DNA of 38,390 bases, taken from IMG/VR virus record IMGVR_UViG_3300035659_000053, positions 1-38,390 of that record; one strand, written 5' to 3'. The notes under the pieces are model-generated. The model did not search any database and was not told the DNA's origin. It saw nothing but the letters and a program-made list of their open reading frames with translations. This DNA is from a virus. Shown piece after piece: positions 542 to 21,667 of the stretch. The position numbers and the translations under genes were made by a program. The stretch's first letter is position 1. Each line of letters begins with the position of its first letter.

Positions 542-2023
542 CTACCCGACGATCGCCAGGGGCAGGTAGACCAACGTCTCTAGTGCGCGCGTTACCGCCA
601 CGTATGCGAGGTTTGCTTCCTGCTCAACCTGCCACGCTTGCCGTGCCCACTTCGACGGCATCAGATCCGGTTCGAGAATGAACACTCGCGGCGCTTCCAA
701 TCCCTTCGCTTTGTGCACCGTCGCCAGTCGCACTCCGCACGTACCATCGGCGAAGATCGCATCGATTGCCCGCACCAGTTCCGCCACCGTCTCAACACCT
801 CGCGCCAACATCTCGATACACGTTGCCTTGTCTTCGATCGCAGCGGCTTTAGACTCATCGTCACGCACCTTTGCCAGCATGCGCGTACGCCACGTTGCAA
901 GCTTGATCAGGAAAGCATCCACAGCCACCGTGCGCCGTCCCGCAACGCGCTGCACGATGTTGATCAGGCCTTGCCCGATCTCGCGCCCCATCACGCGTAC
1001 AGGTCGCCCCGCTGCAATGCACCGGTACGCCAGATCGATCAGCGGTGCCGTGTTCCGGCAAACCACGAGATCACTGTCCGAAAAGGAATCGAGCGACCAC
1101 GTCGCCGGATGCAACACCTCGCCATCCTCAGCTGTCGGCGCACACTCGATCTGCGGCACGTACTGTTGCGCAATCGCGACCACCGATCGCGGGCATCGGT
1201 ACGTGATCGACAACGGCAGCGTCGTTGCCCCAAACACTCGCGCGATGTTTGCGAGCGATTGCGAATCCGCACCCCGGAATCCGTAGATCGCTTGGTGCGA
1301 GTCACCCACCGCAATCAATCGCCCGTCACGCTTCAGGAATTTGCGCAGCAAGGTGCGCTGCACGTGCGACACGTCTTGCGCCTCATCCACGATCAGCCAA
1401 TCGTATTTCCACGTCGCCATGTCGAGCGCAACGGGCAGGTACAGCTGATCATCGAAATCGAGCACGTGCAGTTCTTTCAGCCCCAACGCCAGCAGCTGGT
1501 TTGCCCAATCGATGAACTGCCCCTCTGTGATCTCGTCAGGGAGGTCGACGTCGTAGCGCGTCATCAGCGTAACCCAGCGCGCCGGGGTCGCCTCGTACGT
1601 GCCCGAGGGTATCGCGCCACCTGCGGGCACCAGCCCGTGCGCCTTCGCTTTGCCGATCAACCCCATCAACTCACCCTTGGCCACCTGCGCCTCGCCCGGC
1701 AGCTTCGCGTCGATCAGGTCGCGCGTTTTGTTGCGATCGATCTGGATGCCCTTCGGCAGACGCGCCCGGCACACTGCAAACCCCAGCGCGTTAAGCGTCT
1801 TCGCTTCCACGTGCGCAGGAAGCCGATTACCCAACTCGGTTGCGATCGATTTGTTGAACGCCAGGAATGCCGCCTTGTGATCTGTGGGGATCAACTCGGC
1901 AGCTTTGACGATCGTGGTCGTCTTGCCCGAGCCCGCGACCGCTTCCACGATCAGCGCGCCCGGTGCGTCGAGGTGCTCGTGCACCCAGGTGAAAATCGCA
2001 GCTTGGTATTGTGAGAATTCCAC
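542..2023 (-). CDS. UvrD/Rep-like superfamily 1 DNA helicase (short form)
   Basis: This is an ATP-dependent SF1A helicase, expected to unwind duplex DNA during phage replication or repair. All the core motifs are visible: Walker A AGSGKT (residues 30-35), DEAQD (212-216), GDSHQAIYGFRGAD (239-252), TYRCPRS (273-279), VHKAKGLE (435-442) and the motif VI region AYVAVTRAL (472-480). At 493 residues it is much shorter than cellular UvrD (about 720) and lacks the large 1B/2B insertions. The start is GTG, preceded by AGGGGG at good spacing. It lies 9 nt after a small gene in the promoter P1 operon, far from the other replication genes. Confidence 0.93.
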   Translation of the reverse strand: MEFSQYQAAIFTWVHEHLDAPGALIVEAVAGSGKTTTIVKAAELIPTDHKAAFLAFNKSIATELGNRLPAHVEAKTLNALGFAVCRARLPKGIQIDRNKTRDLIDAKLPGEAQVAKGELMGLIGKAKAHGLVPAGGAIPSGTYEATPARWVTLMTRYDVDLPDEITEGQFIDWANQLLALGLKELHVLDFDDQLYLPVALDMATWKYDWLIVDEAQDVSHVQRTLLRKFLKRDGRLIAVGDSHQAIYGFRGADSQSLANIARVFGATTLPLSITYRCPRSVVAIAQQYVPQIECAPTAEDGEVLHPATWSLDSFSDSDLVVCRNTAPLIDLAYRCIAAGRPVRVMGREIGQGLINIVQRVAGRRTVAVDAFLIKLATWRTRMLAKVRDDESKAAAIEDKATCIEMLARGVETVAELVRAIDAIFADGTCGVRLATVHKAKGLEAPRVFILEPDLMPSKWARQAWQVEQEANLAYVAVTRALETLVYLPLAIVG

Positions 2024-2251: not shown

Positions 2252-2296
2252 TTGTCGCTTCCTTTTGTGGGTGGCCGGTTTGCCACCGTGGAAACC

Positions 2297-2325
2297 ATTA
2301 TCGCACACTAGCGCTGCCGTGTATG
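2297..2325 (-). promoter_or_regulatory. Promoter/operator cassette P1
   Basis: Reading on the minus strand: -35 CATACA, 17-bp spacer, -10 GATAAT. The 18-bp dyad CACGGCAGCGCTAGTGTG (2304-2321) fills the spacer. A conserved block, ACTTACAAAGTCACTA, lies just upstream. A 6-bp hairpin (2270-2287) sits at the start of the predicted transcript. The cassette overlaps the last codons of the preceding gene and serves the 2251 gene and the helicase. Confidence 0.85.
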
Positions 2326-2514
2326 TAGTGACTTTGTAAGTGGCCGGATGTAGCGGCGGATCACGCGCAGGCAGTCGGCGGCGGTCTTGAGATCGCTACC
2401 GTCAGCCGGATCAGTGGCGGATGACAGCAACCCCTCAGTGCCGTCGTTGATTTCAACCACGTACCCGAGCGCGGGGTTGGATGTGTCATACAGATGGAAA
2501 CTTGCTTCGATCAT
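2308..2514 (-). CDS. Hypothetical protein
   Basis: This unrecognised 68-residue protein starts at an ATG with AAGGGAG and AAGGGA upstream. Its last 11 codons are formed by the upstream part of promoter P1 (the C-terminus PLTKSLHTRQR is translated from the conserved ACTTACAAAGTCACTACATACA region), so its C-terminus is partly dictated by regulatory DNA. It is the last gene of the P2 operon. Confidence 0.7.
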   Translation of the reverse strand: MIEASFHLYDTSNPALGYVVEINDGTEGLLSSATDPADGSDLKTAADCLRVIRRYIRPLTKSLHTRQR

Positions 2515-2528
2515 GTCCCTTTGCTCCC

Positions 2529-2744
2529 TTAGCCTGCGACGCAGTAGCCTGCCGTTACGAAATCCATCGCCCGCCGTTGCTCAGATCCCGACAGGATGAA
2601 CACCGGAAAGAATCGCCCCTCGGCGCTCGTCGCGATCACGTAGCGCGTCTCGTGCGCGTGGAGCCTATCCATGACCAGGGTCGCTCGTGCCACTGCCGTC
2701 TCGCGAGTCTTGAAGGTCTTGCTGGTTTCGGTAAACAGTTCCAC
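2529..2744 (-). CDS. Hypothetical protein
   Basis: This unrecognised 71-residue protein has a GTG start with AGGAG eight nt upstream. A mixed alpha/beta pattern is visible, with a hydrophobic strand-like GRFFPVFIL. It is the second gene of the P2 operon. The leader between it and the previous gene contains a perfect GC-rich hairpin immediately before the ribosome binding site. Confidence 0.72.
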   Translation of the reverse strand: MELFTETSKTFKTRETAVARATLVMDRLHAHETRYVIATSAEGRFFPVFILSGSEQRRAMDFVTAGYCVAG

Positions 2745-2756
2745 TTTGAAACTCCT

Positions 2757-2774
2757 GGGGGGCTCGCGCCCCCC
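2757..2774 (-). other. RNA hairpin with GNRA tetraloop before a ribosome binding site
   Basis: In minus-strand RNA, GGGGGGC-GCGA-GCCCCCC forms a perfect 7-bp stem capped by a GCGA tetraloop. It is followed directly by AGGAG of the next gene. There is no T-tract, so it is not a terminator; an RNA processing, stability or translation-control element is inferred. Confidence 0.6.
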
Positions 2775-2788
2775 TGTCGGTGTGTTGG

Positions 2789-3031
2789 TTAGCTGCGATC
2801 CATCAGGTCGCGTACTTGCTCTTCGGTGATGTTGATCCGCGCCGTGATCGGGAAGTTTTCCAGCGCCGCCTTGGTGATGTACTTGCGGTAGATCTTGAGC
2901 GCGGCTTCCAACTCTGCCGACTCATCGGCGGTTTGCTTATCGATCAGGTCCCAGCACAAGTTGTGGTGCAGTTCGTTGATGTGAGTGTCCCAGGCCTTGG
3001 TGTACTGGCTGGCTGACTTCGCTTGGCTCAT
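2789..3031 (-). CDS. Hypothetical protein, helical
   Basis: This unrecognised 80-residue protein starts at an ATG with AGGAG eight nt upstream. It is rich in charged and helix-forming residues (for example DESAELEAALKIYRKY). It is the first gene of the P2 operon. A short hairpin (3051-3065) lies in the leader between the promoter and this gene. Confidence 0.75.
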   Translation of the reverse strand: MSQAKSASQYTKAWDTHINELHHNLCWDLIDKQTADESAELEAALKIYRKYITKAALENFPITARINITEEQVRDLMDRS

Positions 3032-3073
3032 CTTCTCGTCTCCTGGTTAGGGTCGTTCTTCGACCGTGAAACC

Positions 3074-3102
3074 ATTATCCCACATTAGCGCTTCCGTGTA
3101 TG
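3074..3102 (-). promoter_or_regulatory. Promoter/operator cassette P2
   Basis: -35 CATACA, 17-bp spacer, -10 GATAAT. The dyad CACGGAAGCGCTAATGTG lies at 3081-3098, with upstream block ACTTACAAAGTCCCTA. A leader hairpin (GGTCG, loop AAGAA, CGACC) starts about where the transcript should. It serves the 3031, 2744 and 2514 genes. Confidence 0.87.
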
Positions 3103-3124
3103 TAGGGACTTTGTAAGTGCCCCT

Positions 3125-3334
3125 TTATTCGCCACGCGTCGGCGTGTTCGGAGTTGTCACGAGCAGCGCGAGCAGTTCCCGGCACTCGGCAATGTCTGCG
3201 TGCGTGTCGATGTCGTAGCCCAGGCACTCGATGGCGAAGTCAAGATCAGACTGCACGTGCGCCCGTAAGATCTCCTGCGATCGGCCATCGAGCACCGCGT
3301 GGTACTTGCGGATGTGGTCGTAAGCGTCTCTCAT
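3125..3334 (-). CDS. Hypothetical protein
   Basis: This unrecognised 69-residue protein uses the ATG at 3334, nine nt after GAGGGGA. A GTG three codons upstream would leave no room for the ribosome binding site. The start overlaps the stop of the preceding 41-residue gene as ATGA. It is the last gene of the P3 operon and stops just before promoter P2. Confidence 0.72.
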   Translation of the reverse strand: MRDAYDHIRKYHAVLDGRSQEILRAHVQSDLDFAIECLGYDIDTHADIAECRELLALLVTTPNTPTRGE

Positions 3335-3456
3335 GACTTCCACTCCCCTCGGTGCTTGCGTGCGCCACGCTTCGCCGCCTTCTTGCGGTCAACGTGTACG
3401 CGCGCGTGGTTGAACTTCCGGCCGTACTTCGCTACAAAATTGCGTTGCGTGTTCAT
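3331..3456 (-). CDS. Small basic phage protein, DUF7230-like
   Basis: This 41-residue, strongly basic protein has the N-terminal motif RNFVAKYGRKFNHARVHVDR followed by KKAAKRG. It resembles a widespread family of tiny basic phage proteins of unknown role (DUF7230-type, from memory; not searched). It is bracketed by two 4-nt ATGA overlaps, with the gene before it and the gene after it, which is strong evidence that it is translated. No membrane segment or cysteines are present. An RNA- or DNA-binding role is only a guess from its charge. Confidence 0.78.
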   Translation of the reverse strand: MNTQRNFVAKYGRKFNHARVHVDRKKAAKRGARKHRGEWKS

Positions 3457-3665
3457 AGTCTGTCCAGTGCTCGGTCGATTGCCGTGGTGATTTCCTCATC
3501 GGTCAGTTTCAGGAAATCAGCACACTTGCCTTTCAAGGTGCGCACGTCTGCGATTTCGTAGTAGTCCGACATGATCCCCACGTCCCGCTCTGCCGGGAAC
3601 CATTCGATCGTGGCCACCAAGGGGAAGCCGCCGCGTACCGTGATGTCTACCGTGTCTGGCGTCAT
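3453..3665 (-). CDS. Hypothetical protein
   Basis: This unrecognised 70-residue acidic protein starts at the ATG immediately after the TAA of the upstream gene; AGGGAG lies 7 nt before it, inside that gene. Its C-terminus ends in a likely helix (LTDEEITTAIDRALDRL). It overlaps the next gene by ATGA. Confidence 0.73.
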   Translation of the reverse strand: MTPDTVDITVRGGFPLVATIEWFPAERDVGIMSDYYEIADVRTLKGKCADFLKLTDEEITTAIDRALDRL

Positions 3666-3908
3666 TTAGATTCTCCCTGCGTTGAAGCGCACAGCTTTGA
3701 CAGCCTGTTGGAGACTCTTGATCAGAGCCTCAGCTTGCGCGACGTTCATGTACGTGCCTGCTACTCGGTCAGCGTCTGCATGACCCTCGAAGAGGCGGAA
3801 GCCAATTTCGATCTCGCCGTCGATGCTGATCCAGCCGTTGTTGCTCTTGGCTGAGCGGACACCATCGATGCCTTCGACCCGGTTGATGTAGGTGATCGTG
3901 TTCTTCAT
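3666..3908 (-). CDS. Hypothetical protein, possible paralogue of the 4242-4517 product
   Basis: This is an 80-residue protein if it starts at the second of two adjacent ATG codons (7 nt after GGAG); the first ATG at 3911 is also possible. The family is unknown. Its C-terminal half (AGTYMNVAQAEALIKSLQQAVKAV) resembles the C-terminal half of the next operon's 91-residue protein (AGVALDATQMRELIATLQEA), which suggests an old duplication. It is the first gene of the P3 operon, with an 80-nt leader. Confidence 0.74.
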   Translation of the reverse strand: MKNTITYINRVEGIDGVRSAKSNNGWISIDGEIEIGFRLFEGHADADRVAGTYMNVAQAEALIKSLQQAVKAVRFNAGRI

Positions 3909-3991
3909 CATCGCGCTCCGTTTGTGGTTTGTTGGTTGGGGGCGGTGCCCAGTTGCTAGGGAACTTACCCGCCTCTCTCAACCGTGAAACC

Positions 3992-4020
3992 ATTATCGCA
4001 CAGTAGCGCTTCCGTGTATG
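3992..4020 (-). promoter_or_regulatory. Promoter/operator cassette P3
   Basis: -35 CATACA, 17-bp spacer, -10 GATAAT. The dyad CACGGAAGCGCTACTGTG lies at 3999-4016. The upstream block ACTTACATAGTCCCTA overlaps the last codons and TAG stop of the preceding gene. It serves the four coupled genes between 3908 and 3125. Confidence 0.87.
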
Positions 4021-4026
4021 TAGGGA

Positions 4027-4245
4027 CTATGTAAGTGCTAACTCTTCGACGTGGTAATGCGCCTCGCCGAACATCTGCACGCTGTGCCCGTTGAGTCGCG
4101 CGCATGCCGCGTCGGCGTACTCCTGTGATGCCCAGCCTTCGACCACGCCGCCCACTTGGTTGACGATCACGTGCGTCGAGCTACCGTGTACCGACTTCGG
4201 CAGGCCCCGCGCTGCTGCGCTCGCTTGTGCTTGTTTCAGGTTCAT
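4027..4245 (-). CDS. Hypothetical protein
   Basis: This unrecognised 72-residue protein contains a strand-like HVIVNQVGGVVEGW and then a helix, an arrangement like small alpha/beta phage proteins. The ATG overlaps the preceding stop as ATGA, with GAGGGG just upstream. Its last codons and TAG stop lie in the upstream block of promoter P3. Confidence 0.72.
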   Translation of the reverse strand: MNLKQAQASAAARGLPKSVHGSSTHVIVNQVGGVVEGWASQEYADAACARLNGHSVQMFGEAHYHVEELALT

Positions 4246-4517
4246 ATCGACCCCTCGAAGTATTTGCTGGCTTCTTGCAGCGTTGCGATCAACTCGCGCA
4301 TCTGCGTCGCATCGAGCGCGACTCCCGCGATCATCTTGCGGTGCTTCGACTTGAAGTTCTGATTGATCCCGATTGGTCCCGTGTTGCGGATCTGCACGGA
4401 CACTCGGCCAGGACTCGACGGGTACACTCTGATTGCGGGCACCACGTCATAGTCGGGGTCGATCTCGTGCACGTACGTCGAGAGTGGGTTGGTCTTGATT
4501 GATCGCTCATTCATCAT
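4242..4517 (-). CDS. Hypothetical protein
   Basis: This unrecognised 91-residue protein starts at the ATG with AGGAG eight nt upstream; the longer open frame to 4673 has no ribosome binding site and overlaps the previous gene. A beta-rich N-terminal half (IRVYPSSPGRVSVQIRN) is followed by a C-terminal helix. The C-terminal half resembles the 80-residue product at 3666-3908. It couples to the next gene by ATGA. Confidence 0.76.
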   Translation of the reverse strand: MMNERSIKTNPLSTYVHEIDPDYDVVPAIRVYPSSPGRVSVQIRNTGPIGINQNFKSKHRKMIAGVALDATQMRELIATLQEASKYFEGSI

Positions 4518-4531
4518 GCTCGTCGCTCCTG

Positions 4532-4723
4532 TTAGTAATTGGTCAACGAGATCCACGACCATTCGTGGATCGTGAGCCCCCCCTTGTGCACGAGGGGCTT
4601 GGTGATCACCTGCCACGCGATGTCGCAACGCTTGCACGTACGGCGGCGCACGTCCGTGGCCACTGTGCTGCATTCGAGCGTGATCGCATGGTCGCAGCAG
4701 GGGAATTTACTTTTTATTTTCAC
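4532..4723 (-). CDS. Small zinc-ribbon-like protein
   Basis: This 63-residue protein has five cysteines and a histidine: CCDH near residue 10, LEC near 18 and CKRC near 30-33. The spacing suggests one bound metal ion. The GTG start is preceded by AGGA eight nt upstream; the longer frame would start at the expected transcription start and was discarded. It is the first gene after promoter P4. The role is unknown; nucleic-acid or protein binding is inferred from the zinc motif only. Confidence 0.68.
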   Translation of the reverse strand: MKIKSKFPCCDHAITLECSTVATDVRRRTCKRCDIAWQVITKPLVHKGGLTIHEWSWISLTNY

Positions 4724-4753
4724 GTTCTTATTCCTAGCCCTATCCAAAGAACT

Positions 4754-4782
4754 ATTAAACCACAGGAGCGTTTCTGTGTAAA
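4754..4782 (-). promoter_or_regulatory. Promoter/operator cassette P4
   Basis: -35 TTTACA, 17-bp spacer, -10 TTTAAT. The dyad CACAGAAACGCTCCTGTG lies at 4761-4778, with upstream block ACTTACAATTTCAC. It sits directly after a strong intrinsic terminator, so the operon boundary is sharp. It serves the 4723, 4517 and 4245 genes. Confidence 0.9.
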
Positions 4783-4801
4783 GTGTGAAATTGTAAGTGC
4801 C

Positions 4802-4830
4802 AAAAAAAACCCCGGCTGTTACACCGGGGC
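4802..4830 (-). terminator. Intrinsic terminator
   Basis: On the minus strand, a 6-bp stem (CCCCGG/CCGGGG) with an 8-nt loop is followed by eight T. It lies 20 nt after the stop of the 172-residue protein and directly before promoter P4. This is the cleanest terminator in the window. Confidence 0.9.
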
Positions 4831-4849
4831 TCCTGGTCGCCGTCCTTCT

Positions 4850-5368
4850 TCAGATCACGCAGTTGTTGACCGCTTCGGACAACTCGTTGCGTTTGTCTTC
4901 CAGCCAGTTCTGGATCTCTTCGGCCTTCTCTTCATCGGTAGGTGCCTCGTCACCTTCGCCATCCAGCTCGGTCTGGAAGTCATAGTCGAGCGATTGCACG
5001 TCGCTCTGGGCGCTGTCACAGGCATCGATGCGCTCTTGTAGCATCTGCCCGGTGTCGCCTTGCTGCAGGCCTTCAGGCATGTTGCTGAGGCTGTCCTCGC
5101 AGGTGCTCTTGAGTTCATCTAGCTGGCTGTCGACATCGTCGCGCAGCATACCCAGATCCGCCGCTTCAATGAGGGGGAACTCGTCGATCATCTCGCCTAG
5201 TGCCAGGATGCCTCCCATGTACGCGCTCTGCGTCAGCTGCGATGGCTTCGGTGATTCTTTGCTGTAGTGTTTGCCACCGAACCGGAAAGCCCACCACCAG
5301 TACGACTCACCCTTCTTGGCTACCGGGTTGTCCTGACGTGCCGCCTTTACGAACTGTGCTTTTGCCAT
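4850..5368 (-). CDS. Conserved phage protein of unknown function
   Basis: This 172-residue protein starts at an ATG with GGAGG eight nt upstream. The N-terminal part (KKGESYWWWAFRFGGKHYSK, then PKPSQLTQS) is a pattern I recall from unnamed phage proteins. The rest is a very acidic, probably coiled helix (for example DGEGDEAPTDEEKAEEIQNW). The aromatic, basic N-terminus with an acidic tail could suit a nucleic-acid or protein-binding role; that is inference. It is the last gene of the P5 operon, before the terminator. Confidence 0.78.
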   Translation of the reverse strand: MAKAQFVKAARQDNPVAKKGESYWWWAFRFGGKHYSKESPKPSQLTQSAYMGGILALGEMIDEFPLIEAADLGMLRDDVDSQLDELKSTCEDSLSNMPEGLQQGDTGQMLQERIDACDSAQSDVQSLDYDFQTELDGEGDEAPTDEEKAEEIQNWLEDKRNELSEAVNNCVI

Positions 5369-5387
5369 TTTTCAATCCTCCGGTTGC

Positions 5388-5403
5388 GGCACATCCATGT
5401 GCC
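5388..5403 (-). other. Intergenic RNA hairpin
   Basis: GGCACA-TGGA-TGTGCC is a perfect 6-bp stem with a 4-nt loop and no T-tract. It lies between the DUF932 gene and the ribosome binding site of the next gene. The preceding stop is followed by TAACCAACACA, the same words that precede the hairpin at 2757. A processing or stability element is inferred. Confidence 0.45.
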
Positions 5404-5419
5404 TGGGTTGTTGTGTTGG

Positions 5420-6175
5420 TTACGCTGCGAGTGCGTAATCGGTTGCCGTGTCCATCAGCTGCTGAAGCTTGATGGTGCGCGCCGGGAGTGTCGCCAAGCC
5501 CACACCCTTGAGCGCTTCCGTAGCCGCGTTGTGCAGCGTCCAGATCGTGCGCTTGCCGTTGATCAGGTGCTCGGGGTGCGACGGCTCGTAGTACTCCTGC
5601 ACCACCTTCTCGACGCGCTGCGTGTTGATCACGCCTTGGCGCAGCATCTGAATGATCGCGTGATTGACCAGCTGGTCCTTCAGTTCCGCACGCTGATAGC
5701 GCTCGTACCGCACTGCCTGCTGCTGGGCACGACCCCGCACCTGAGACACCGCATCAGCCACCAGCGGACGCAGGTCACGCATGATGTTGGTCGTGTGCTT
5801 GCGACCGAACTGGATCTCGCCATGGAACGCGAGGTTGTCGCAGACAAACACACCGTCACCGAACACGAGACCACGAGCCAGCGAGTGATCGTGCGAGCCA
5901 CGGAAGCCTACGATCGTGCGCCACGTGTCGTTGTCGGAGAGGCCTTTGCCCAGCACCTCGGCGATGCCGAACATCTGCGCACCTTCGCGGTTGAGCGCAT
6001 ACATCTGCGAACCGAACTTCAGATCCACGTTGCCCAACTCGTCTTCGAGCAGATCCACAAACTTGCCGTGATCCACCGGATGAAACGACCGAGTCGTCTC
6101 GGGCATCTTGACCAGCGACAGCGCCGGACGTTCTACCTTCGAACCACCTGCATGAACTATCAAGTTGAGGGACAT
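5420..6175 (-). CDS. DUF932 family protein
   Basis: This 251-residue protein matches the DUF932 family found in many phages and plasmids. The signature VGFRGSHDHSLARGLVFGDGVFVCDNLAF followed by a conserved RKHT is recognisable. The biochemical role is not established; some members are called anti-restriction or LigT-like without proof. The ATG at 6175 was chosen because GGAG lies nine nt upstream and the longer frame at 6220 would start at the predicted transcription start. It is the first gene of the P5 operon. Confidence 0.85.
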   Translation of the reverse strand: MSLNLIVHAGGSKVERPALSLVKMPETTRSFHPVDHGKFVDLLEDELGNVDLKFGSQMYALNREGAQMFGIAEVLGKGLSDNDTWRTIVGFRGSHDHSLARGLVFGDGVFVCDNLAFHGEIQFGRKHTTNIMRDLRPLVADAVSQVRGRAQQQAVRYERYQRAELKDQLVNHAIIQMLRQGVINTQRVEKVVQEYYEPSHPEHLINGKRTIWTLHNAATEALKGVGLATLPARTIKLQQLMDTATDYALAA

Positions 6176-6226
6176 CTTCATTTGCTCCGTTTGTTCCAGG
6201 GTTGCAGTTCTTGACTGCATGATGCT

Positions 6227-6255
6227 ATTAGACCACAGCAGCGCTCAAGTGTAAA
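6227..6255 (-). promoter_or_regulatory. Promoter/operator cassette P5
   Basis: -35 TTTACA, 17-bp spacer, -10 TCTAAT. The dyad CACTTGAGCGCTGCTGTG lies at 6234-6251, with upstream block ACTTACAAAATAATA. A 6-bp hairpin (TGCAGT, loop CAAGA, ACTGCA; 6203-6219) begins right at the predicted transcription start. Confidence 0.86.
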
Positions 6256-6273
6256 GTATTATTTTGTAAGTGA

Positions 6274-6417
6274 CTAAAAGATCTCGGACCAGCGCACTTT
6301 GCGCTTACGCTCACGCTCCCAGTTGCGAATCGCAGCAACTGCAGTGGTCCAACCAGCGATTGCTACCATCATGCAGATGATCGTGAAGATGTACGCGCCG
6401 GTCTGGATTTCACACAT
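6274..6417 (-). CDS. Small single-pass membrane protein
   Basis: This 47-residue protein has one hydrophobic segment (about residues 7-30, YIFTIICMMVAIAGW and on) followed by a highly basic tail (RERKRKVRW), so the C-terminus is likely cytoplasmic. Its ATG lies inside the last codons of the HTH gene (8-nt overlap), so translation is probably coupled. A second small membrane protein lies two genes upstream. A holin/spanin or inner-membrane accessory role is possible but not shown. Confidence 0.65.
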   Translation of the reverse strand: MCEIQTGAYIFTIICMMVAIAGWTTAVAAIRNWERERKRKVRWSEIF

Positions 6418-6607
6418 CGAGGTGCTCGGGGGGTGGCGGGACATTCTTGTAGGCCCCCTTCCGATTGAGCACTTGGTTCACTGTCTGGGCTGAGCAGTTC
6501 ACGTGCGTTGCGATCTGTTCGAGGTTGCACGTCGTGTTGCGGTGGTACCACCACACCTTAGCGATGCCGTCAGCGTCGAGTGCCCTGGGTCGACCCCTAC
6601 CACTCAC
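6410..6607 (-). CDS. Small helix-turn-helix DNA-binding protein
   Basis: This 65-residue protein begins with an AT-hook-like GRGRPRALD and continues with a helix-turn-helix (NLEQIATHVNCSAQTVNQVL), much like the C-terminal DNA-binding domain of resolvases or HTH_7 proteins. The GTG start overlaps the stop of the membrane-protein gene as GTGA, which fixes it. The longer open frame to 6709 overlaps that gene and was discarded. It is the clearest small DNA-binding protein in the left arm and so a candidate ligand for the repeated operator, although nothing in the sequence proves this. Confidence 0.75.
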   Translation of the reverse strand: MSGRGRPRALDADGIAKVWWYHRNTTCNLEQIATHVNCSAQTVNQVLNRKGAYKNVPPPPEHLDV

Positions 6608-6768
6608 AGGAACGTCCCGCCACCCGGCACGATGAAGATCGCATTGACCATCAGGACAAAGATGTTCCAGGCGAGCCAGCCAACGCACAGCGCCAGGATG
6701 ATCGGCCACACCCGGATGATCACGTAGACCATCAGTAGGGCAACAATCAAGGTAATGGGGTCCATCAT
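6604..6768 (-). CDS. Small two-segment membrane protein
   Basis: This 54-residue protein is almost entirely hydrophobic: one segment from about residue 5 to 20 (TLIVALLMVYVII) and another from about 22 to 45 (IILALCVGWLAWNIFVLMV), separated by RVWP. Its start overlaps the stop of the previous gene as TGATG, with AGGAG eight nt upstream, and its own stop overlaps the HTH gene as GTGA. A two-segment hairpin of this size suits a membrane accessory protein or a class II-like holin; the position in an early operon argues against a lysis role. Confidence 0.75.
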   Translation of the reverse strand: MMDPITLIVALLMVYVIIRVWPIILALCVGWLAWNIFVLMVNAIFIVPGGGTFL

Positions 6769-7280
6769 CACACGCTCTCCTGCTTAATCGAGCGCTCTTT
6801 ACGCAGCTGTTCGCTTAGGGCAAGACGCAGGGAATCCATGCGCGGGGTTGTCATGCTTTGGGGATCTGCTTGCAGAATCGCATACGCAGCTGAGAACAGC
6901 TCACACTGGGCATAGGCGAGCGAGTAGGGAACCTCCTGGCCACCGTATCCGCCCTCTCGGGGCATCACGCCCCCGTAACAGGCGGACCTTAGCAGTGAGT
7001 ACGCATACGCGGTCTTACGCCCCTCTCGAAGACGAGCCACTTTGAGGCACCTTGCGTACGCAAACAGGCACAATTGCCGCACCTCAGGAAGAACGTCAGC
7101 GAAGTGTTTTTCAACTTGGATTCGCCGATTCAACTCCTCGATCTTTTTCACTGTGGTGTACTCGATCATGCTGAACCGACGCGCGTTTGCTTCTGCTTCA
7201 GCAAGATCTATTTTGGCGAAGGTCAGTGTCTGAGTTGCTTCGCTCAACTCTGTGACCAGCTGGTTGTAACTTTCGGACAT
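6768..7280 (-). CDS. Coiled-coil protein, paralogue of 8110-8583
   Basis: This 170-residue protein starts at an ATG with AGGAG six nt upstream. Residues 1-60 form a likely coiled coil (repeated L/E/A heptads). The middle (LCLFAYARCLKVARLREGRKTAYAYSLLRSA) aligns by eye with IARFAYTRVRDVQRLRESGRLMQSRWVLETA in the protein at 8110-8583, so the two genes look like diverged duplicates placed in adjacent operons. The function is unknown. It is the third gene of the P6 operon. Confidence 0.75.
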   Translation of the reverse strand: MSESYNQLVTELSEATQTLTFAKIDLAEAEANARRFSMIEYTTVKKIEELNRRIQVEKHFADVLPEVRQLCLFAYARCLKVARLREGRKTAYAYSLLRSACYGGVMPREGGYGGQEVPYSLAYAQCELFSAAYAILQADPQSMTTPRMDSLRLALSEQLRKERSIKQESV

Positions 7281-7293
7281 TTCAATCTCCTGC

Positions 7294-7710
7294 TCAGCGT
7301 TGTTGAAACCGAATGCGTCGCGTGATCCCGTTCGCCTCGTCGTACTCCTCTTTCCCCAGGCCTATGGCGACCAACGTCGAGGCGCGAGACTCGCGTATCT
7401 GCTCCATCGTCTCCCTGAGCGCGTACATCTGCCACGCTGGGCTGTTGCCACGACCATTCAACAAGGCGCGCAACTCATCAACCGCGCCCTGACCAGATAC
7501 GTCGCACCAGTACTGGCGCTCGATCCGTTCGGCAACAACATCGGCAACGCGACCGCGAACGTGGTACTCATTCGGCAGTGCCTGCTTGCAGAGGGGATCG
7601 AACTTCCCGTATGCCGATGCGCTTACACGCTCTTGGTTACGCTCTGTCTGCGAGAGGCGCTCCTGCGCAACCATCGCGGCTGCGCCAGGGGTTGTGATCT
7701 CGTATTTCAT
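7294..7710 (-). CDS. Hypothetical protein
   Basis: This unrecognised 138-residue protein starts at an ATG with AGGAG six nt upstream. It is polar and mostly helical, with no clear motif. It is the second gene of the P6 operon and shares an almost identical ribosome-binding context (CAGGAGA-N-TGAAATG) with the next gene. Confidence 0.72.
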   Translation of the reverse strand: MKYEITTPGAAAMVAQERLSQTERNQERVSASAYGKFDPLCKQALPNEYHVRGRVADVVAERIERQYWCDVSGQGAVDELRALLNGRGNSPAWQMYALRETMEQIRESRASTLVAIGLGKEEYDEANGITRRIRFQQR

Positions 7711-7735
7711 TTCAGTCTCCTGCTCTTCGGTGGGG

Positions 7736-8062
7736 CTAGATGACGCCTTTGCGAACGCTTACGTTGACGCGAACGTGTGCCACACGGTTGACCCTCTGGT
7801 TCGCCGTGATCAGCTGGCGCGAGGGCTTGAGCTTCATTGCGATCTTTTTCCAGTCCGGTCCAACGCTTTCCTTGATCGACGACAGGACCACGCGAAAGAA
7901 GTTGCCTTCCAGTACTTCGACGCCTGCGTTCTGTAGCTCTTTGACGAGCTTGGCATCCATCTCCGACAGCTCGGCTATCTGTGCGCGAAGCCTGCCGATC
8001 TGGTCCACAAGGGGCTTCAGATTGCTGTTGATATCTACGACGTTGTTTTCTACTGCGTTCAT
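7736..8062 (-). CDS. Hypothetical phage protein with coiled coil
   Basis: This 108-residue protein has an N-terminal coiled coil (residues 8-45), followed by GNFFRVVLS, WKKIAMKLKPSRQLI and a strand-like HVRVNVSV. I recall this arrangement (coil, then '..W..IA.KL.PSRQL..') from unnamed phage proteins but cannot assign a role. The ATG at 8062 has GAGAGG eight nt upstream; the frame from 8104 starts inside promoter P6 and was discarded. Confidence 0.73.
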   Translation of the reverse strand: MNAVENNVVDINSNLKPLVDQIGRLRAQIAELSEMDAKLVKELQNAGVEVLEGNFFRVVLSSIKESVGPDWKKIAMKLKPSRQLITANQRVNRVAHVRVNVSVRKGVI

Positions 8063-8092
8063 CTTTCTTACCTCTCGTTTAAGTTCGAAGCT

Positions 8093-8121
8093 ATTAAACC
8101 ACACTAACGCTACTGTGTAAA
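8093..8121 (-). promoter_or_regulatory. Promoter/operator cassette P6
   Basis: -35 TTTACA, 17-bp spacer, -10 TTTAAT. The dyad CACAGTAGCGTTAGTGTG lies at 8100-8117, with upstream block ACTTACAATTTCCAG. The upstream half of the cassette is also the 3' end of the preceding gene, whose last residues TISSFTQ and TAG stop are encoded by it. It serves six coupled or closely spaced genes down to 6274. Confidence 0.88.
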
Positions 8122-8583
8122 GCTGGAAATTGTAAGTGCCTCTCGCAACTCTTTTTCCAGAGCCAATCCCTTGGTTATAACGTCTGTTGATTTTGCAGAG
8201 TGATCTTCACGGAGTATGTCCATGGCCGCACGCAGGAGACGGTATTCAGGATGGTCCTTGGGGTAGGCGAGGCTAGCGTATTTAATCGCTGTTTCGAGTA
8301 CCCAACGAGATTGCATCAGCCTCCCTGACTCTCGGAGTCTCTGAACGTCGCGAACACGCGTGTAAGCGAACCGGGCTATCTCTATGACACCCTGATTGTA
8401 CTGAGAGAGAGCCACCTCTGCGGCTAACAACGCTTCAGCACTAGCCTGCGCAGCTCTCGCTTCAGTGAGGTCTCGGTTGGCTTGGTACAGCGATTCTTCA
8501 GCAACCTGTTGTAGGTGTCTGAAGTGCACAACGCGTGCCTTCAGAGCCACGACATCGTCGTTTAATTTTTTGAAATCGATCAT
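8110..8583 (-). CDS. Coiled-coil protein, paralogue of 6768-7280
   Basis: This 157-residue protein starts at an ATG with AAGGAG eight nt upstream and an ATGA overlap with the preceding micro-gene. Residues 1-60 form a long coiled coil rich in Ala and Glu; the middle resembles the 170-residue product at 6768-7280. The function is unknown. Its last codons are read from promoter P6. Confidence 0.76.
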   Translation of the reverse strand: MIDFKKLNDDVVALKARVVHFRHLQQVAEESLYQANRDLTEARAAQASAEALLAAEVALSQYNQGVIEIARFAYTRVRDVQRLRESGRLMQSRWVLETAIKYASLAYPKDHPEYRLLRAAMDILREDHSAKSTDVITKGLALEKELREALTISSFTQ

Positions 8584-8705
8584 TGCATCTGCTCCTTGAC
8601 TTGGCGCTTACCTACGCGCCGCTCTTGCGACCGAGCCTTTCGCCGATTCCGATGATTCTCGCCTTTTGATAAAGAACACTTGTAATGATCCGCGCCATAC
8701 TTCAC
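8580..8705 (-). CDS. Basic micro-protein
   Basis: This 41-residue, very basic protein (for example HRNRRKARSQERRVGKRQ) starts at GTG, seven nt after GAGGG. Its stop overlaps the next gene's start as ATGA and its start overlaps the previous frame's stop as GTGA. Two tight couplings plus a ribosome binding site support translation despite the size. It is similar in size and charge to the 41-residue protein at 3331-3456 but not evidently related. No function is assigned. Confidence 0.5.
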   Translation of the reverse strand: MKYGADHYKCSLSKGENHRNRRKARSQERRVGKRQVKEQMQ

Positions 8706-8836
8706 TGGTCATCCCTCAGTTGCCTTGTTAGGTTCCCGATCCAGGCTCGCTGACTAGCCTGTCTCAGTTCGGGCCTCTCACCCGCTCGGTGCTCCAAGGT
8801 ATGTTGGTTCGGATCGAGCGTGCCGTTTTTCGCCAC
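8702..8836 (-). CDS. Possible micro-protein, first gene of the P7 operon
   Basis: This 44-residue polar frame (ending AWIGNLTRQLRDDQ) starts at a GTG ten nt after AGGGA. The same frame stays open up to a TTG at 8905, which would add 23 mostly Arg-rich residues. Support comes from the GTGA overlap with the next frame. The leader upstream (about 8906-9012) shows no further gene. The call is weak. Confidence 0.33.
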   Translation of the reverse strand: MAKNGTLDPNQHTLEHRAGERPELRQASQRAWIGNLTRQLRDDQ

Positions 8837-9018
8837 TGCTTCCCGGTCCCTACTCCGCTCCCGTTGTATCGCCCTCGAACGACGACCACCGGTACAGATC
8901 CGCAACCACCCCCTTTGATTTGGTCAACTCGCACACTTAGCTAGGTGGGGGGACACCCTGCGAGCTTCTAGGAGTCGGCCAAGCCAGCGCTCGTCACCTC
9001 ATCCCAAACCTTGAAACC

Positions 9019-9047
9019 ATTAAACCACAGGAGCGCTTCCGTGTATG
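9019..9047 (-). promoter_or_regulatory. Promoter/operator cassette P7
   Basis: -35 CATACA, 17-bp spacer, -10 TTTAAT. The dyad CACGGAAGCGCTCCTGTG lies at 9026-9043, with upstream block TTTACAAAGTCACTA. It combines the -35 type of P1-P3 with the -10 type of P4-P9, as if recombined between the two subtypes. A leader of roughly 150 nt or more follows. Confidence 0.88.
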
Positions 9048-9062
9048 TAGTGACTTTGTAAA

Positions 9063-9830
9063 TCACAGGTTCTCCAGGTTCTTCAATATCCCCTTCAGGT
9101 CCAGGTAGTCGCTCATCGCCGCTTTGAAGTCGTCGGGCAGCGTGATGTTCGACTCTGCCAAGATCTCGAACGCACGCTCTGCATTGGTCTGCAGCGTCTT
9201 CTCCAGCAGCCGTTGGTGATCCCAGCGAGTGTGCCGCTTATTCTCGTGTGCCAGGGTTTCAAGCACTTTTGCTCGCGCCTGCGCTACGCGTTCAGCTGTG
9301 ATCAACGTCAGCTCGGTCTTGATCTTACGCAGCAAGGTTTTGAAGCTACTGGTCTCACGCATGCCTCTATTCTTGTATGCCCGACGTAGGCTCGGCAATG
9401 TGTCTACGAAATTGTAGCTGTGCTCTACGCTCCCAAAGTCTCGGTGCGGGGAGTACAGGCGGATGCGACCGGCCAGAGAACCACGCACGCCCACGGCGTG
9501 TTGGCCGTTCCCTTCGCGACGATCAAGCACTTCGTTCACGTAGAGGGGATTGTGGATCTTAATGGACGCACTGTTCTCACCGTACTCCACCACAATCAGG
9601 TTGGCAGCGTAGCCCTGATCAACGATCGCAAGAGTGATCAGTTCGATCCGGGTGTGCATTGCGTCCCGAGAGATAGCTTCTTCCAGTTCACGCACTTTGA
9701 GTTCCATCTGCTTGCGCAGCGGGTGGTCAGAAGGAACCGCGCTATCGCTAGCGAAACCATGCGCCGTCCTAACGAATGTCCAAGGGGAGCGATACTCACT
9801 TGCGCGAAACTTTACGAGTAGTTCTTCCAT
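9063..9830 (-). CDS. Hypothetical protein
   Basis: This unrecognised 255-residue protein has an alpha/beta N-terminal half (strand-like IELITLAIV and ANLIVVEYG) and a long, charged helical C-terminal half (residues about 150-240, many Arg, Glu and Leu). The ATG at 9830 was preferred to the GTG at 9839 because a GAG lies about eight nt upstream; neither site is strong. It is the only gene of the P8 operon and among the largest unknowns of the left arm. Confidence 0.75.
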   Translation of the reverse strand: MEELLVKFRASEYRSPWTFVRTAHGFASDSAVPSDHPLRKQMELKVRELEEAISRDAMHTRIELITLAIVDQGYAANLIVVEYGENSASIKIHNPLYVNEVLDRREGNGQHAVGVRGSLAGRIRLYSPHRDFGSVEHSYNFVDTLPSLRRAYKNRGMRETSSFKTLLRKIKTELTLITAERVAQARAKVLETLAHENKRHTRWDHQRLLEKTLQTNAERAFEILAESNITLPDDFKAAMSDYLDLKGILKNLENL

Positions 9831-9860
9831 CACAGTCACTCAGTGGGTTTACCAGGATCC

Positions 9861-9889
9861 ATTAAACCACAGAAGCGCTAGCGTGTAAA
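9861..9889 (-). promoter_or_regulatory. Promoter/operator cassette P8
   Basis: -35 TTTACA, 17-bp spacer, -10 TTTAAT. The dyad CACGCTAGCGCTTCTGTG lies at 9868-9885. The upstream block is diverged (CTGACAAATATTCTC) compared with the other copies. It serves the 255-residue protein gene. Confidence 0.87.
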
Positions 9890-9940
9890 GAGAATATTTG
9901 TCAGGGGGTTGTAAATCGTTTCCGACACGCTAGCCCGGCT

Positions 9941-10012
9941 TCAAGTCTGGGGAGCCATCGCATACACCGATATCTTGCGGCCGTCAGCGCACTTCCACTT
10001 CTCGTCATACAT
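9941..10012 (-). pseudogene. Possible remnant of a small phage gene, frameshifted
   Basis: The frame MYDEKWKCADGRKISVYAMA resembles the start of small phage proteins of the type 'W-x-DG-x-x-I'. It stops after only 23 codons, while the adjacent frame continues as PRLEAGLACRKRF to 9901. A one-nucleotide change in the CCCC run near 9951 would join the two frames. No good ribosome binding site is seen. Either a broken gene or a chance frame. Confidence 0.3.
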
Positions 10013-10022
10013 TCTGTCGCAC

Positions 10023-10451
10023 TCAAACCTTCCCTTTCGAGCGCAGTTCCAACGCAACAGCGGTGCCCCAGCGTTTCGCGCACTCACCACCATGGAACAC
10101 GCCCTGCCCGTCGTAGCCGTACTTGCCGAACCACACGCGGACCTCGATGGTGTACTGCGAAGGCAGTGGCTTTTGCTTACGTGGCCAGTAGTGAAACGTT
10201 GCTGCTTGTCTGTTTTCGGTATCGGCCTGATTCCGTGCGTAGTACTGTTCCGCTCGCTCATAATCTTTGCACTCTTCGACCTGCCGAGCGTTGAGCTTCT
10301 CGACCTTGTCCATCAGGATCACTGCCGTCTTTTCGGGATGCATACTGCGCACGTATTCGAGCACGTCAGTGCGATCAAACGGCACAGAGACCCTGCGAAT
10401 GGTTTTGCCCAGGGCTTTGCCACAGTTAACACAGTTCGGTCGTTCACTCAT
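10023..10451 (-). CDS. Zinc-ribbon-like hypothetical protein
   Basis: This 142-residue protein starts at an ATG with AAGGAG six nt upstream. An N-terminal C-x-x-CG (residues 7-11) and a C-terminal GGECAKRW resemble a split zinc-binding site of the kind seen in small phage proteins. The middle is charged. It is the third gene of the P9 operon. Its start once overlapped the end of the previous gene, before that gene was truncated by a duplication. Confidence 0.75.
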   Translation of the reverse strand: MSERPNCVNCGKALGKTIRRVSVPFDRTDVLEYVRSMHPEKTAVILMDKVEKLNARQVEECKDYERAEQYYARNQADTENRQAATFHYWPRKQKPLPSQYTIEVRVWFGKYGYDGQGVFHGGECAKRWGTAVALELRSKGKV

Positions 10452-10494
10452 CGCTAGCTCCTTTCTTGCTCTCTACGATCATGGCGAGCACCAC

Positions 10495-10550
10495 CTCATC
10501 CACCCACTTGTCTGCAGTGATCCTCATCCACCCACCTGTCTGCAGTGATC
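10495..10550. repeat. 28-bp perfect-length tandem duplication
   Basis: Two head-to-tail 28-bp copies (10495-10522 and 10523-10550) differ at one base (CACTTG versus CACCTG). They lie at the 3' end of the 99-residue gene. Since 28 is not a multiple of three, the duplication changes the reading frame. Confidence 0.93.
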
Positions 10551-10795
10551 GCCGCTTCGAAGTCGGACCACGTGTCTGTTATGTAGTCCGTGAAAGAACT
10601 GACCACAAACTCACCCGTTACGCGGGCAGCCCATTCACGATCGTGTAGCAGCTCTTCGGCGTGTACCTGGATAGTGACAACCTCTTCTAGGCTGAGACCC
10701 CCACCTTGGGACACTTGGGCAATTTTCCACAAAGTCCACTGCACCACCTTGGTGATCTGCAGGATTTGTTCAGCGGTAGTCATGACTTCAATCAT
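10496..10795 (-). CDS. Hypothetical protein, C-terminus replaced by a duplication
   Basis: This unrecognised 99-residue protein is mostly helical. The 28-bp tandem duplication shifts the frame after WVDE, so it now ends DHCRQVGG. Removing one copy restores 16 further codons (beginning VVLAMIVESKK) and a stop that overlaps the next gene's ATG by 8 nt, in line with the coupling seen elsewhere in the arm. Start: ATG at 10795, 10 nt after AAGGGG; the ATG at 10783 is an alternative. Confidence 0.72.
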   Translation of the reverse strand: MIEVMTTAEQILQITKVVQWTLWKIAQVSQGGGLSLEEVVTIQVHAEELLHDREWAARVTGEFVVSSFTDYITDTWSDFEAAITADRWVDEDHCRQVGG

Positions 10796-11003
10796 TTGCT
10801 ACAGGCCCCTTAGGTTGTTTGTTGGTGTGCCACACCATGTTGTTCTCATCGACAACTCGGTAGAACCTGACTAGCAGCCAGCGTTCCGACAGGTTGACCG
10901 CTGCCGTGAGTGCATCCGTGTCTGTTGGATACAGCAGCGAATTGCCTGTCCAGGTATCCTCGTCTCTGTCGGTCAAAACATTAACCTGAATGCGGTACTT
11001 CAT
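10788..11003 (-). CDS. Hypothetical protein
   Basis: This unrecognised 71-residue protein has strand-like segments (YRIQVNVLTD, LLVRFYRVVD) around a central helix. No strong ribosome binding site is visible, and a leader hairpin (11006-11029) lies across the predicted transcription start and translation start region. It is the first gene of the P9 operon and overlaps the next gene by 8 nt. Confidence 0.65.
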   Translation of the reverse strand: MKYRIQVNVLTDRDEDTWTGNSLLYPTDTDALTAAVNLSERWLLVRFYRVVDENNMVWHTNKQPKGPVAND

Positions 11004-11032
11004 AACTCACAGATCTTTTGAAATGTGAGGCT

Positions 11033-11061
11033 ATTAAATCACAGTAGCGTTTCCGTGTAAA
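11033..11061 (-). promoter_or_regulatory. Promoter/operator cassette P9
   Basis: -35 TTTACA, 17-bp spacer, -10 TTTAAT. The dyad CACGGAAACGCTACTGTG lies at 11040-11057. It is followed by an inverted repeat, CTCACA...TGTGAG, that spans the expected start of the RNA. It serves the operon from 11003 to 9941 and lies 25 nt after the primase gene stop. Confidence 0.9.
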
Positions 11062-11085: not shown

Positions 11086-13224
11086 TTAGATCTTGGCGAA
11101 GTAGCAGATAGTGAGATCTTGTTTGCTGGATCCAATCACCTCACCCTCGTGCAGTGAGTTGAGGATCTCTTCGAGTCGGTATTTCCCGATGCGGCGTGTG
11201 CCTCGAACCAACACAGCACGGGGTAACAAACCCCGGATCATCAGTTCGCGTTGTTTGTGTTGCGTGGGGTGTCTTGCGAGACCCAGGCACTCTTCTGGAT
11301 GCCTGATCATGTTCTCTACCTGCTTAGACTGGCGCTCTTGTTCACTTCCGCCGCCCACCATACGAATCTTCTCATCCCAGCAGTTACAGCTCCATTCCGT
11401 GATCCCGATGGCCCAGGTCGTGAGGTACTCGTCTATCTGCGGCCGGTGCGGATCGATCCCCACTGCAGCGACACCCGCGAGGATCAGTGCATTCTGGTTA
11501 GCCCGAGCCCAGGTGTACTCTTGCGCCATGGATCGCCTGCGTGAGGCTTCTTCAAATGCTTGAAACCGTGAGTAAGCACGACTGGTCTTGAACGTGATCT
11601 CGGTGAAGTCTCTCTCAGGTTCATGTTGAAGCATGGCGCGCCCCTGCCTTAGGAGCGATGCCGGGAATACTTTTTCTCGCTGACGATTCAAGGGTGGGAA
11701 AACTGAACCGGAGTCGAATAGCAGGAAGCGATTTACGAAGCCCGTTTCTTGCGCTGCACTTGTAATGGCTTCCATCAGCATCTGTGGCTGCGCAGTAGCT
11801 AACAAGGTAAAGAAGGGGTTTACCAGCTCTGGGATGGTTTGCTTCCTACCCGGTGTAGCGCCGATGACTTTAGTGCCCGCACCATACAGAGACAAAATGT
11901 GCGTGATAGTTTGGAAGTCAGGCCCGTTGATGTTCTTCGCGGCAAGCAGGTTACGCGCCGCTTCATCCCACACGAGGCAAACATTGCCTTCTTCCGCAAG
12001 CGTATCGAGCAGCACGTAATACGATTGGAATCCCTTGTAGGGGATTGATAACCCAATGGCCCGAGAGAACTCACTGATTGCTGCGATCACCGCGTCTTTA
12101 CCGCCCCCAGTGGGCGCAGTGACCATCAGGTAGGGACTGATCGGAGTGTCCCACCCTTGCACGATATATTTGTTGCTGCTCGCGTATGCGGTGCACGTGA
12201 TGCCCGTTGCGAGATCAAATATCGGCTGCTGCAGGTATGAGCGCTTATGCGACCAGCGTGCGATGTCTCCAATTAGCCCAGGAATATCTAGCCACTCAGA
12301 CTTGAATGCGAGATCCCCACCTTTGAATGTTGGTTCCTTTCGCGCTCGTGAGGTCTTGAGGTTTACAGGTTCTTCTTCCAGTTGCGCTTCCACTTCACCG
12401 CTTTTCAGCCACATGCGCAGCTTCGCTGTTGCCTGCGGTGTCATGAAATCAACAAGAGATGTCAGCCCCTTGATCTGACTGCCATCCGCATGTCGTGCAA
12501 TGGTGTTGACTACAGATCCCTTGCGATCCTGCATCTCCTCGTCTTCACCAACGACTTCACTAAGGACCGCACCCATCACACGCTTTATCTTGGTGGCATC
12601 CCAATTTGCATGACACAACGTGCCGGTGCATGCGTGAACGAAATCGTGTCTGCCGTGTTGTCCCTTTTCGGGATAGTAAAAAAGAAACACTGCAGCGATA
12701 GCGATCTCATCACAGAGCATCTCTAAGTCGAGCTTCGAGACCTCAAAGAGTGGGGTGTCATCCTCGATGAAATAACGATCACCCTCTGGGTGGCGTGATG
12801 GCGGTAGCACGGATTGCGCACCCGTGGACCGGATCTCGATGACCATGCCTAGCTGATCTTTCCCCGTGATCTGCCACTTTTTCGTCTCGGCATCCACGCA
12901 ACGGAACAGGTAATGGCTAGCACGTTTGTTACGTCTGCCATAGATAAATGTCTTGTGATTTTTCAGCAGATGCTGCGCAACAGCAGGTGCCGTGGAAAGA
13001 TCTAGATCGACATCGACAGCCCAATTGGATGGCTGACCCCATAGTCCGCCGATGTTATCCCCAGGCCTAAATGCCCTGCCAAAATCATCACTTACGAGTC
13101 GAAGATGTTGCCACTCTTTGGTCTTTGGCTTCTTGCTGCTCTCATGAAGCGGTACGCAAAAAACGCCGCGCTTCTCCCAATCGGCTGCTGCTTGCGTAGC
13201 GTCAAGCCTGCCCTTATTCTGCAT
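11086..13224 (-). CDS. Primase-polymerase / replicative helicase fusion
   Basis: This is a bifunctional replication protein. The N-terminal about 200 residues form a primase-polymerase (archaeo-eukaryotic primase fold, Prim-Pol type): DNIGGLWGQPSNWAVDVDLD carries the acidic metal-binding pair (about residues 70-75), and ASHYLF supplies the conserved His. A C-terminal DUF3987-type or related P-loop helicase follows, with PTGGGKD (about 371-377) and CLVWDEAA (about 416-423). The Walker A residue after Lys is Asp rather than Ser/Thr. Start: ATG at 13224, seven nt after AAGGA; an upstream GTG (13299) would add 25 residues. It is transcribed away from the polymerase operon. Confidence 0.88.
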   Translation of the reverse strand: MQNKGRLDATQAAADWEKRGVFCVPLHESSKKPKTKEWQHLRLVSDDFGRAFRPGDNIGGLWGQPSNWAVDVDLDLSTAPAVAQHLLKNHKTFIYGRRNKRASHYLFRCVDAETKKWQITGKDQLGMVIEIRSTGAQSVLPPSRHPEGDRYFIEDDTPLFEVSKLDLEMLCDEIAIAAVFLFYYPEKGQHGRHDFVHACTGTLCHANWDATKIKRVMGAVLSEVVGEDEEMQDRKGSVVNTIARHADGSQIKGLTSLVDFMTPQATAKLRMWLKSGEVEAQLEEEPVNLKTSRARKEPTFKGGDLAFKSEWLDIPGLIGDIARWSHKRSYLQQPIFDLATGITCTAYASSNKYIVQGWDTPISPYLMVTAPTGGGKDAVIAAISEFSRAIGLSIPYKGFQSYYVLLDTLAEEGNVCLVWDEAARNLLAAKNINGPDFQTITHILSLYGAGTKVIGATPGRKQTIPELVNPFFTLLATAQPQMLMEAITSAAQETGFVNRFLLFDSGSVFPPLNRQREKVFPASLLRQGRAMLQHEPERDFTEITFKTSRAYSRFQAFEEASRRRSMAQEYTWARANQNALILAGVAAVGIDPHRPQIDEYLTTWAIGITEWSCNCWDEKIRMVGGGSEQERQSKQVENMIRHPEECLGLARHPTQHKQRELMIRGLLPRAVLVRGTRRIGKYRLEEILNSLHEGEVIGSSKQDLTICYFAKI

Positions 13225-13388
13225 AGCGATGTCCTTGGTGATCCCCGCTGGGCTCTCCGTTGGCGTCATGGGCATGTGTATCGGGTGCCTCCGCTGCACA
13301 TTCCACGGGAGTGTTTATTAGTCGTCAGGAATAGGCAATCCTAGACGCTAACCAGGACGCTGAGAATGCTTTTCAGAAAAGAAGCTCG

Positions 13389-21389: not shown

Positions 21390-21605
21390 ATGGCTGACGA
21401 CGACATTGGAATGGACAAAGGTGAGATCGAGACCCGTATAGGCACCTCCAACGGACGGGTAGTTATTATCTGGCCCAAGGCGATTGCCTGGGTCACCTTC
21501 GACCCAGACTCAGCGGACAACTTCGCCAACATGCTCAAGATCCGCGCTGCCGAGTGCCGCGTTGAACTGGCCAAGGCAGCTCATAGCGCTATTACAAAAC
21601 ATTAA
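21390..21605 (+). CDS. Hypothetical protein
   Basis: This unrecognised 71-residue protein has strand-like GRVVIIW and IAWVTF segments followed by a C-terminal helix. AGGTGA lies just before the ATG. It is the last gene of the replication operon; the next promoter cassette begins only two nt after its stop. Confidence 0.72.
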   Translation: MADDDIGMDKGEIETRIGTSNGRVVIIWPKAIAWVTFDPDSADNFANMLKIRAAECRVELAKAAHSAITKH

Positions 21606-21606
21606 C

Positions 21607-21634: not shown

Positions 21635-21667
21635 GCAAGATGATTCATCCACTATGGAGATATGAGC

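Follow-up and report, generated by a model that had tools for sequence, protein, structure and literature searches.

The temperate phage phiC31 has an identified repressor gene and carries conserved inverted repeats at multiple early promoters. In L5 and other Cluster A mycobacteriophages, 20-30 repressor sites are found in one orientation, with a motif that drifts between relatives (PMC6550527), and arrays of CtrA-binding sites, for which binding and regulation were shown, are located at the promoters of Caulobacterales phages across phage lineages (PMC9437464). These multi-operator phage arrays (phiC31 and L5-type) and CtrA arrays are the closest known kinds to the element described here, an array of nine promoter cassettes, each with an 18-bp dyad, in the IMG/VR virus record IMGVR_UViG_3300035659_000053 (positions 1 to 38,390, analyzed over their full length and called the window). 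It is a real conserved promoter-operator array and, judged from its sequence, it is best read as the regulon of a putative phage-encoded repressor.

As in phiC31, many palindromic operators are located at early promoters along the early block, where one repressor, here putative, would act; the recurrence of one operator at numerous early promoters of a phage is the mark of a multi-operator repressor array. The differences are that no lysogeny genes were seen here in the regions covered and that the operator is embedded in the promoter at an almost constant register. Many same-orientation sites along the genome and a motif drifting between relatives are shared with L5, but the L5 sites are asymmetric, lie mostly off promoters and block elongation, whereas those described here are symmetric dyads inside promoters and thus differ from stoperators. 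The CtrA arrays likewise hold many copies of one regulator site at phage promoters; there, however, the host factor is known, whereas here the operator sequence is another one, and the genomes searched revealed no host regulon that uses the cassette.

In the window, nine cassettes are located on the minus strand, with the boxes, spacing and positions that the first-pass annotation had given (in plus-strand numbering, CAC begins at the first coordinate of each dyad):

2295-2325, minus strand: cassette 1, -35 CATACA, dyad CACGGCAGCGCTAGTGTG (2304-2321), -10 GATAAT
3072-3102, minus strand: cassette 2, -35 CATACA, dyad CACGGAAGCGCTAATGTG (3081-3098), -10 GATAAT
3990-4020, minus strand: cassette 3, -35 CATACA, dyad CACGGAAGCGCTACTGTG (3999-4016), -10 GATAAT
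4752-4782, minus strand: cassette 4, -35 TTTACA, dyad CACAGAAACGCTCCTGTG (4761-4778), -10 TTTAAT
6225-6255, minus strand: cassette 5, -35 TTTACA, dyad CACTTGAGCGCTGCTGTG (6234-6251), -10 TCTAAT; DUF932 gene next
8091-8121, minus strand: cassette 6, -35 TTTACA, dyad CACAGTAGCGTTAGTGTG (8100-8117), -10 TTTAAT
9017-9047, minus strand: cassette 7, -35 CATACA, dyad CACGGAAGCGCTCCTGTG (9026-9043), -10 TTTAAT
9859-9889, minus strand: cassette 8, -35 TTTACA, dyad CACGCTAGCGCTTCTGTG (9868-9885), -10 TTTAAT
11031-11061, minus strand: cassette 9, -35 TTTACA, dyad CACGGAAACGCTACTGTG (11040-11057), -10 TTTAAT; first promoter past the primase gene

All nine have a 17-bp spacer between a -35 box TTTACA or CATACA and a -10 box TTTAAT, GATAAT or TCTAAT. 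The pattern CAC-N3-AGCGCT-N3-GTG is exact in six of them and carries one inner mismatch in the other three (4761, 8100 and 11040). In the whole window, 6 exact dyads and 10 with at most one mismatch were counted, which is far above chance, as Markov-shuffled sequence contains on average 0.01 exact and 0.21 one-mismatch dyads (maxima 1 and 2 in 400). The additional one-mismatch dyad, at 21073, is located within a coding open reading frame (ORF), lacks a good promoter and is probably a chance match.

The dyad had been assigned to the spacer. This is correct for its core but not for the whole element, as the initial CA of the dyad also closes the -35 hexamer and the GTG arm supplies the TG of the extended -10 (TG-n-TTTAAT); the dyad stops one base short of the -10 itself. 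The outer CAC and GTG are indeed invariant and the inner AGCGCT nearly so, but the outer arms overlap the -35 and the extended -10, both contacted by RNA polymerase, which accounts for some of their invariance, and this part of the conservation does not count in favor of an operator. The inner AGCGCT is not promoter sequence and is independent evidence. The N3 blocks, which had been described as varying, are constrained: in most sites, the middle base of the left block is G and that of the right block is C (CACrGnAGCGCTnCyGTG). The promoter shows the features of a host sigma-70 promoter with an extended -10, namely a TTGACA-like -35, a spacer of 16-18 bp, TGn and a TATAAT-like -10. A second conserved element (U), CTTACAAA or a near variant, is located about 15 bp above every -35 (start to start; 13 bp at 11040), as in this example:

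2326-2345, minus strand: upstream element U (CACTTACAAAG) of cassette 1

The combination of promoter and dyad is shared by about 15 related uncultivated phages, usually in the interval from the primase to the helicase gene. Scans with the cassette, which the first-pass annotation had proposed as a check, led to related phage contigs (L006/L026, binned in an Acidithiobacillales metagenome-assembled genome (MAG), as well as G003 and G004), and a primase-profile search returned 33 loci, about half of them with a cassette. In total, 60 matches in 19 contigs exceed a position weight matrix (PWM) score of 15, including a few that are weak or arise from reading the palindrome on the wrong strand; the background is about 0.04 matches per 20 kb at a score above 14. 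The clade consensus TTGACACRGnAGCGCTnCYGTGgTATAATgR is a near ideal promoter. TTGACA and TATAAT are the commonest boxes, with a -35 TTGACA in 26 and TTTACA in 15 of the 60 matches, and the 17-bp spacer fits 51 of them, the variants being 16 and 18 bp. Element U differs by subgroup (CTTACAAA in the window group, TTnACATAAT in others, TGTGAC in G004), whereas the dyad is unchanged. Primase relatives at 34-42% identity lack the cassette; in the more distant relatives, a single weak match passed the reporting threshold, and no sigma-70 array of a similar kind was found. Furthermore, no convincing DNA match to the cassettes was obtained in cultured phages, and no site scores above 12 in MW202455, GB2A, MW202545 (first 50 kb) or PMBT14.

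Copies of these elements were also seen in other arrangements. An intergenic stretch at G002:C103:20600-21127 (L088 15600-16127) is dense with copies of the upstream element (TTATGTnAA) and resembles iterons or a dense regulator array; C103 and contig C68 appear to belong to the same phage, of which C103 is the late region. Several tandem TTnACATAAT copies are located beside operator sites in L073 (G017 46.2-48.0 kb). In L031 (12302-12385; G008 1588-1671), two opposite-strand operator promoters stand back to back just past the primase gene, one of them aiming antisense into it.

The cultured Caulobacter phage GB2A (Riverwalkvirus) is a distant relative, with a virion protein that is 54% identical. 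In its own array (L084, 2161-15706), GCAA-N8-TTGC dyads overlap early -35 boxes, with 10 copies against 1.1 expected, and a gene for a Cro/YdaS-like helix-turn-helix (HTH) protein (gp049, 18618-18830) is located beside the primase gene. The two arrays, both of them predicted, are alike in that a repeated dyad overlaps early -35 boxes, but in GB2A the dyad is a different one and is located on and above the -35 instead of in the spacer. The publication on GB2A mentions neither promoters nor a repressor (PMC11053796). By analogy, this parallel suggests that operator arrays may be commonly used in this phage group and that the operator may be swappable.

Over the approximately 60 clade sites, the information content of the dyad is mirror-symmetric (r = 0.81), and its partner bases show no covariation beyond column composition. 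At the free pair 6/13, the bases are complementary in 17% of the matches compared to 27% expected by shuffling. A hairpin or cruciform function was rejected, since there is no excess of pairing between the arms; symmetric conservation without covariation therefore argues for recognition of the DNA by a protein. In three phages, the right half-operator directly follows the -35 (TTGACAAGCGCTnCyGTG) and is thus about 6 bp closer to it than usual. Together with the spacers of 16-18 bp, this indicates that the operator is independent of the exact promoter geometry, which would fit steric blocking but not promoter twisting of the MerR kind. The proposed binding of a dimeric protein between -35 and -10 is therefore well supported by the sequence patterns, namely mirror-symmetric conservation, the lack of covariation and the persistence of the dyad through shifts in spacing and register. 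The ideal lac operator also contains AGCGCT, and the palindrome with its central AnCGnT, in which the CpG (columns 13-14) is nearly invariant, resembles LacI-family operators; this is a resemblance only.

From the overlap of related contigs, the full phage genome is estimated at about 70 kb, and the window covers a fragment of it. Besides the early block, the window holds a DNA polymerase operon on the plus strand and virion genes on the minus strand. The early block comprises about 25 small ORFs and the nine cassettes, and it is flanked by two genes:

542-2023, minus strand: UvrD/Dda-type helicase, far end of the early block
11086-13299, minus strand: primase/helicase, near end of the early block, used as the query for finding relatives

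Cassette 6 is located upstream of the gene 7736-8104, which is kept in 12 clade contigs. Directly upstream of cassette 4, a strong hairpin with a T-tract resembling an intrinsic terminator was found at about 4801-4832. The number of genes that a common regulator would switch, given before as about 30, is nearer to 25 ORFs downstream of the cassettes within the window.

We infer protein binding, repression, phage encoding and timing from these features. A strong host sigma-70 promoter, present in many copies, would drive the early block of this phage and about 15 relatives, every copy holding the 18-bp operator, which extends from the end of the -35 through the spacer into the extended -10. Binding of a phage-encoded dimeric protein to the operator would exclude RNA polymerase, so that all early cassettes, together with the operon behind a further site at 21.6 kb, would be shut down at once. 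Most likely, this would serve to stop early transcription as the protein accumulates, or to keep the phage silent. That many operator-promoters of the early block are shut by such a phage-encoded repressor is, in our estimate, an evenly balanced proposition. Repression had been named as the simplest reading, and it is the better one because the promoters are near consensus; this does not extend to the identity of the regulator. The array would define, by a precise operator, an early regulon that is common to the clade and known solely from metagenomes, and whose regulator is not of a recognized type. The operator sequence by itself would be sufficient to fish out this regulator, the promoter-operator cassette could double as a tight regulated promoter, and its presence can be used as a marker for members of the clade in metagenomes.

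The interval 2297-11061 first given for the array is too short, as related contigs hold more sites beyond the fragment and a variant site with the dyad at 21611-21628 is located on the plus strand of the window, in front of a conserved small gene:

21590-21634, plus strand: tenth site (class B), with a U-like ATTACAAA, -35 TTTCCA, dyad CACGGAAGCGAATACGTG (21611-21628), -10 TATGAT and a 16-bp spacer
21662-21850, plus strand: zinc-type protein of 60-62 amino acids, with C-X4-C...C-X3-C and a predicted basic C-terminal helix, behind the class B site

An orthologous class B operator with a shorter spacer precedes the zinc-protein gene in all 11 contigs with that gene, including the window, which suggests feedback. 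Among the phage proteins, it is the best-placed candidate for the regulator, and it may itself bind the operator and control its own operon through the class B site. It is strongly conserved with 34 invariant columns, it is present in 11 clade contigs and it was not seen in the operator-negative relatives examined, for which the loci covered only about 10 kb on each side of the primase gene. In addition, it matches phage HNH-endonuclease families weakly, and a basic C-terminal helix is predicted in a model of moderate confidence (predicted local distance difference test, pLDDT, 71). On the other hand, neither Pfam nor structure comparison linked it significantly to a DNA-binding family, the fold search gave nothing significant, only one member matches Ogr_Delta (E = 0.03), and the gene may be a mere target within the regulon. 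We therefore regard the zinc protein as a doubtful answer to the question of the regulator; it is a special case of the phage-encoded repressor, and the confidences of the two overlap. The wider proposal that a new type of DNA-binding protein, the zinc protein or another phage protein, controls all early promoters of the clade and feeds back on its own operon is tentative but conceivable.

Several results of the protein searches weigh against a repressor of a familiar kind. No CI-, Cro-, LexA-, TetR- or MerR-type regulator was recognizable among the Pfam matches listed (25 of 27 families) for 129 early-region ORFs of six phages, nor among those of the selected window proteins scanned. Neither an integrase nor ParA was among the matches listed for the 129 ORFs, which cover a composite of relatives, the window being a fragment. 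Within the covered regions the clade looks lytic, so that a lysogeny repressor is unlikely. A second regulator candidate is encoded between cassettes 5 and 6:

6410-6709, minus strand: small protein with an HTH module, in three phages only

It matches LacI only at E = 0.26 and, with its RALD-HTH module, was rejected as the universal regulator because of its occurrence in three phages only. Its GRxRAL...GAY helix-turn-helix module is joined to different partners in the window, in L021 (911-1525, minus strand) and in L026 (3347-3817, plus strand). The protein of L021 also has a Lar-like (restriction alleviation) domain, and the partner domain of the L026 protein is a separate gene in L021 (2240-2527).

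The dyad could also be bound by a host transcription factor, by which the phage would read the state of its host in the same way as with CtrA-site clusters, shown to bind and regulate in Caulobacterales phage promoters (PMC9437464). The lack of a recognizable regulator among the phage proteins scanned and the LacI-like core with its central CpG would agree with this. However, in the genomes of 84,980 species the cassette pattern was matched once, in a phage contig, and in no bacterial chromosome (the host of the phage was not identified), and no cassette was found in the genomes of 20 relatives of the MAG with the phage copy. In this MAG, the dyad alone occurs at 13 places compared to 6 for the control, but five of these belong to phage contigs (four to C68 and one to C103), leaving 8 versus 6. 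The absence of the cassette from the bacterial chromosomes searched favors a phage-encoded regulator, and a host factor is accordingly considered unlikely.

An activator acting from the spacer or reshaping the promoter, as in the MerR alternative of the first-pass annotation, would account for a dyad centered between -35 and -10 and for poor -35 boxes such as CATACA in the window or the lack of a recognizable one in most G004 sites. MerR promoters, however, have spacers of 19-20 bp, while 51 of the 60 matches fit 17 bp and variants of 16 and 18 bp occur, in addition to the shifted half-operator. Many near-consensus copies should moreover need no activator, and no MerR-family protein was among the phage proteins scanned, which makes this mechanism very unlikely. 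In another view, no regulator exists, recombination has multiplied one strong promoter into the cassettes, and the dyad is incidental. The cassettes are alike within a genome and their outer arms overlap the -35 and the extended -10, which would agree with this view, but the inner AGCGCT, which has no known polymerase contact, is conserved above several -10 positions across the clade. Since the mirror-symmetric conservation also survives register shifts while the flanking U elements differ between subgroups, an incidental dyad appears most improbable.

Finally, a 28-bp tandem duplication (96% identical) was identified at 10494-10549 of the window, inside the ORF 10496-10795.

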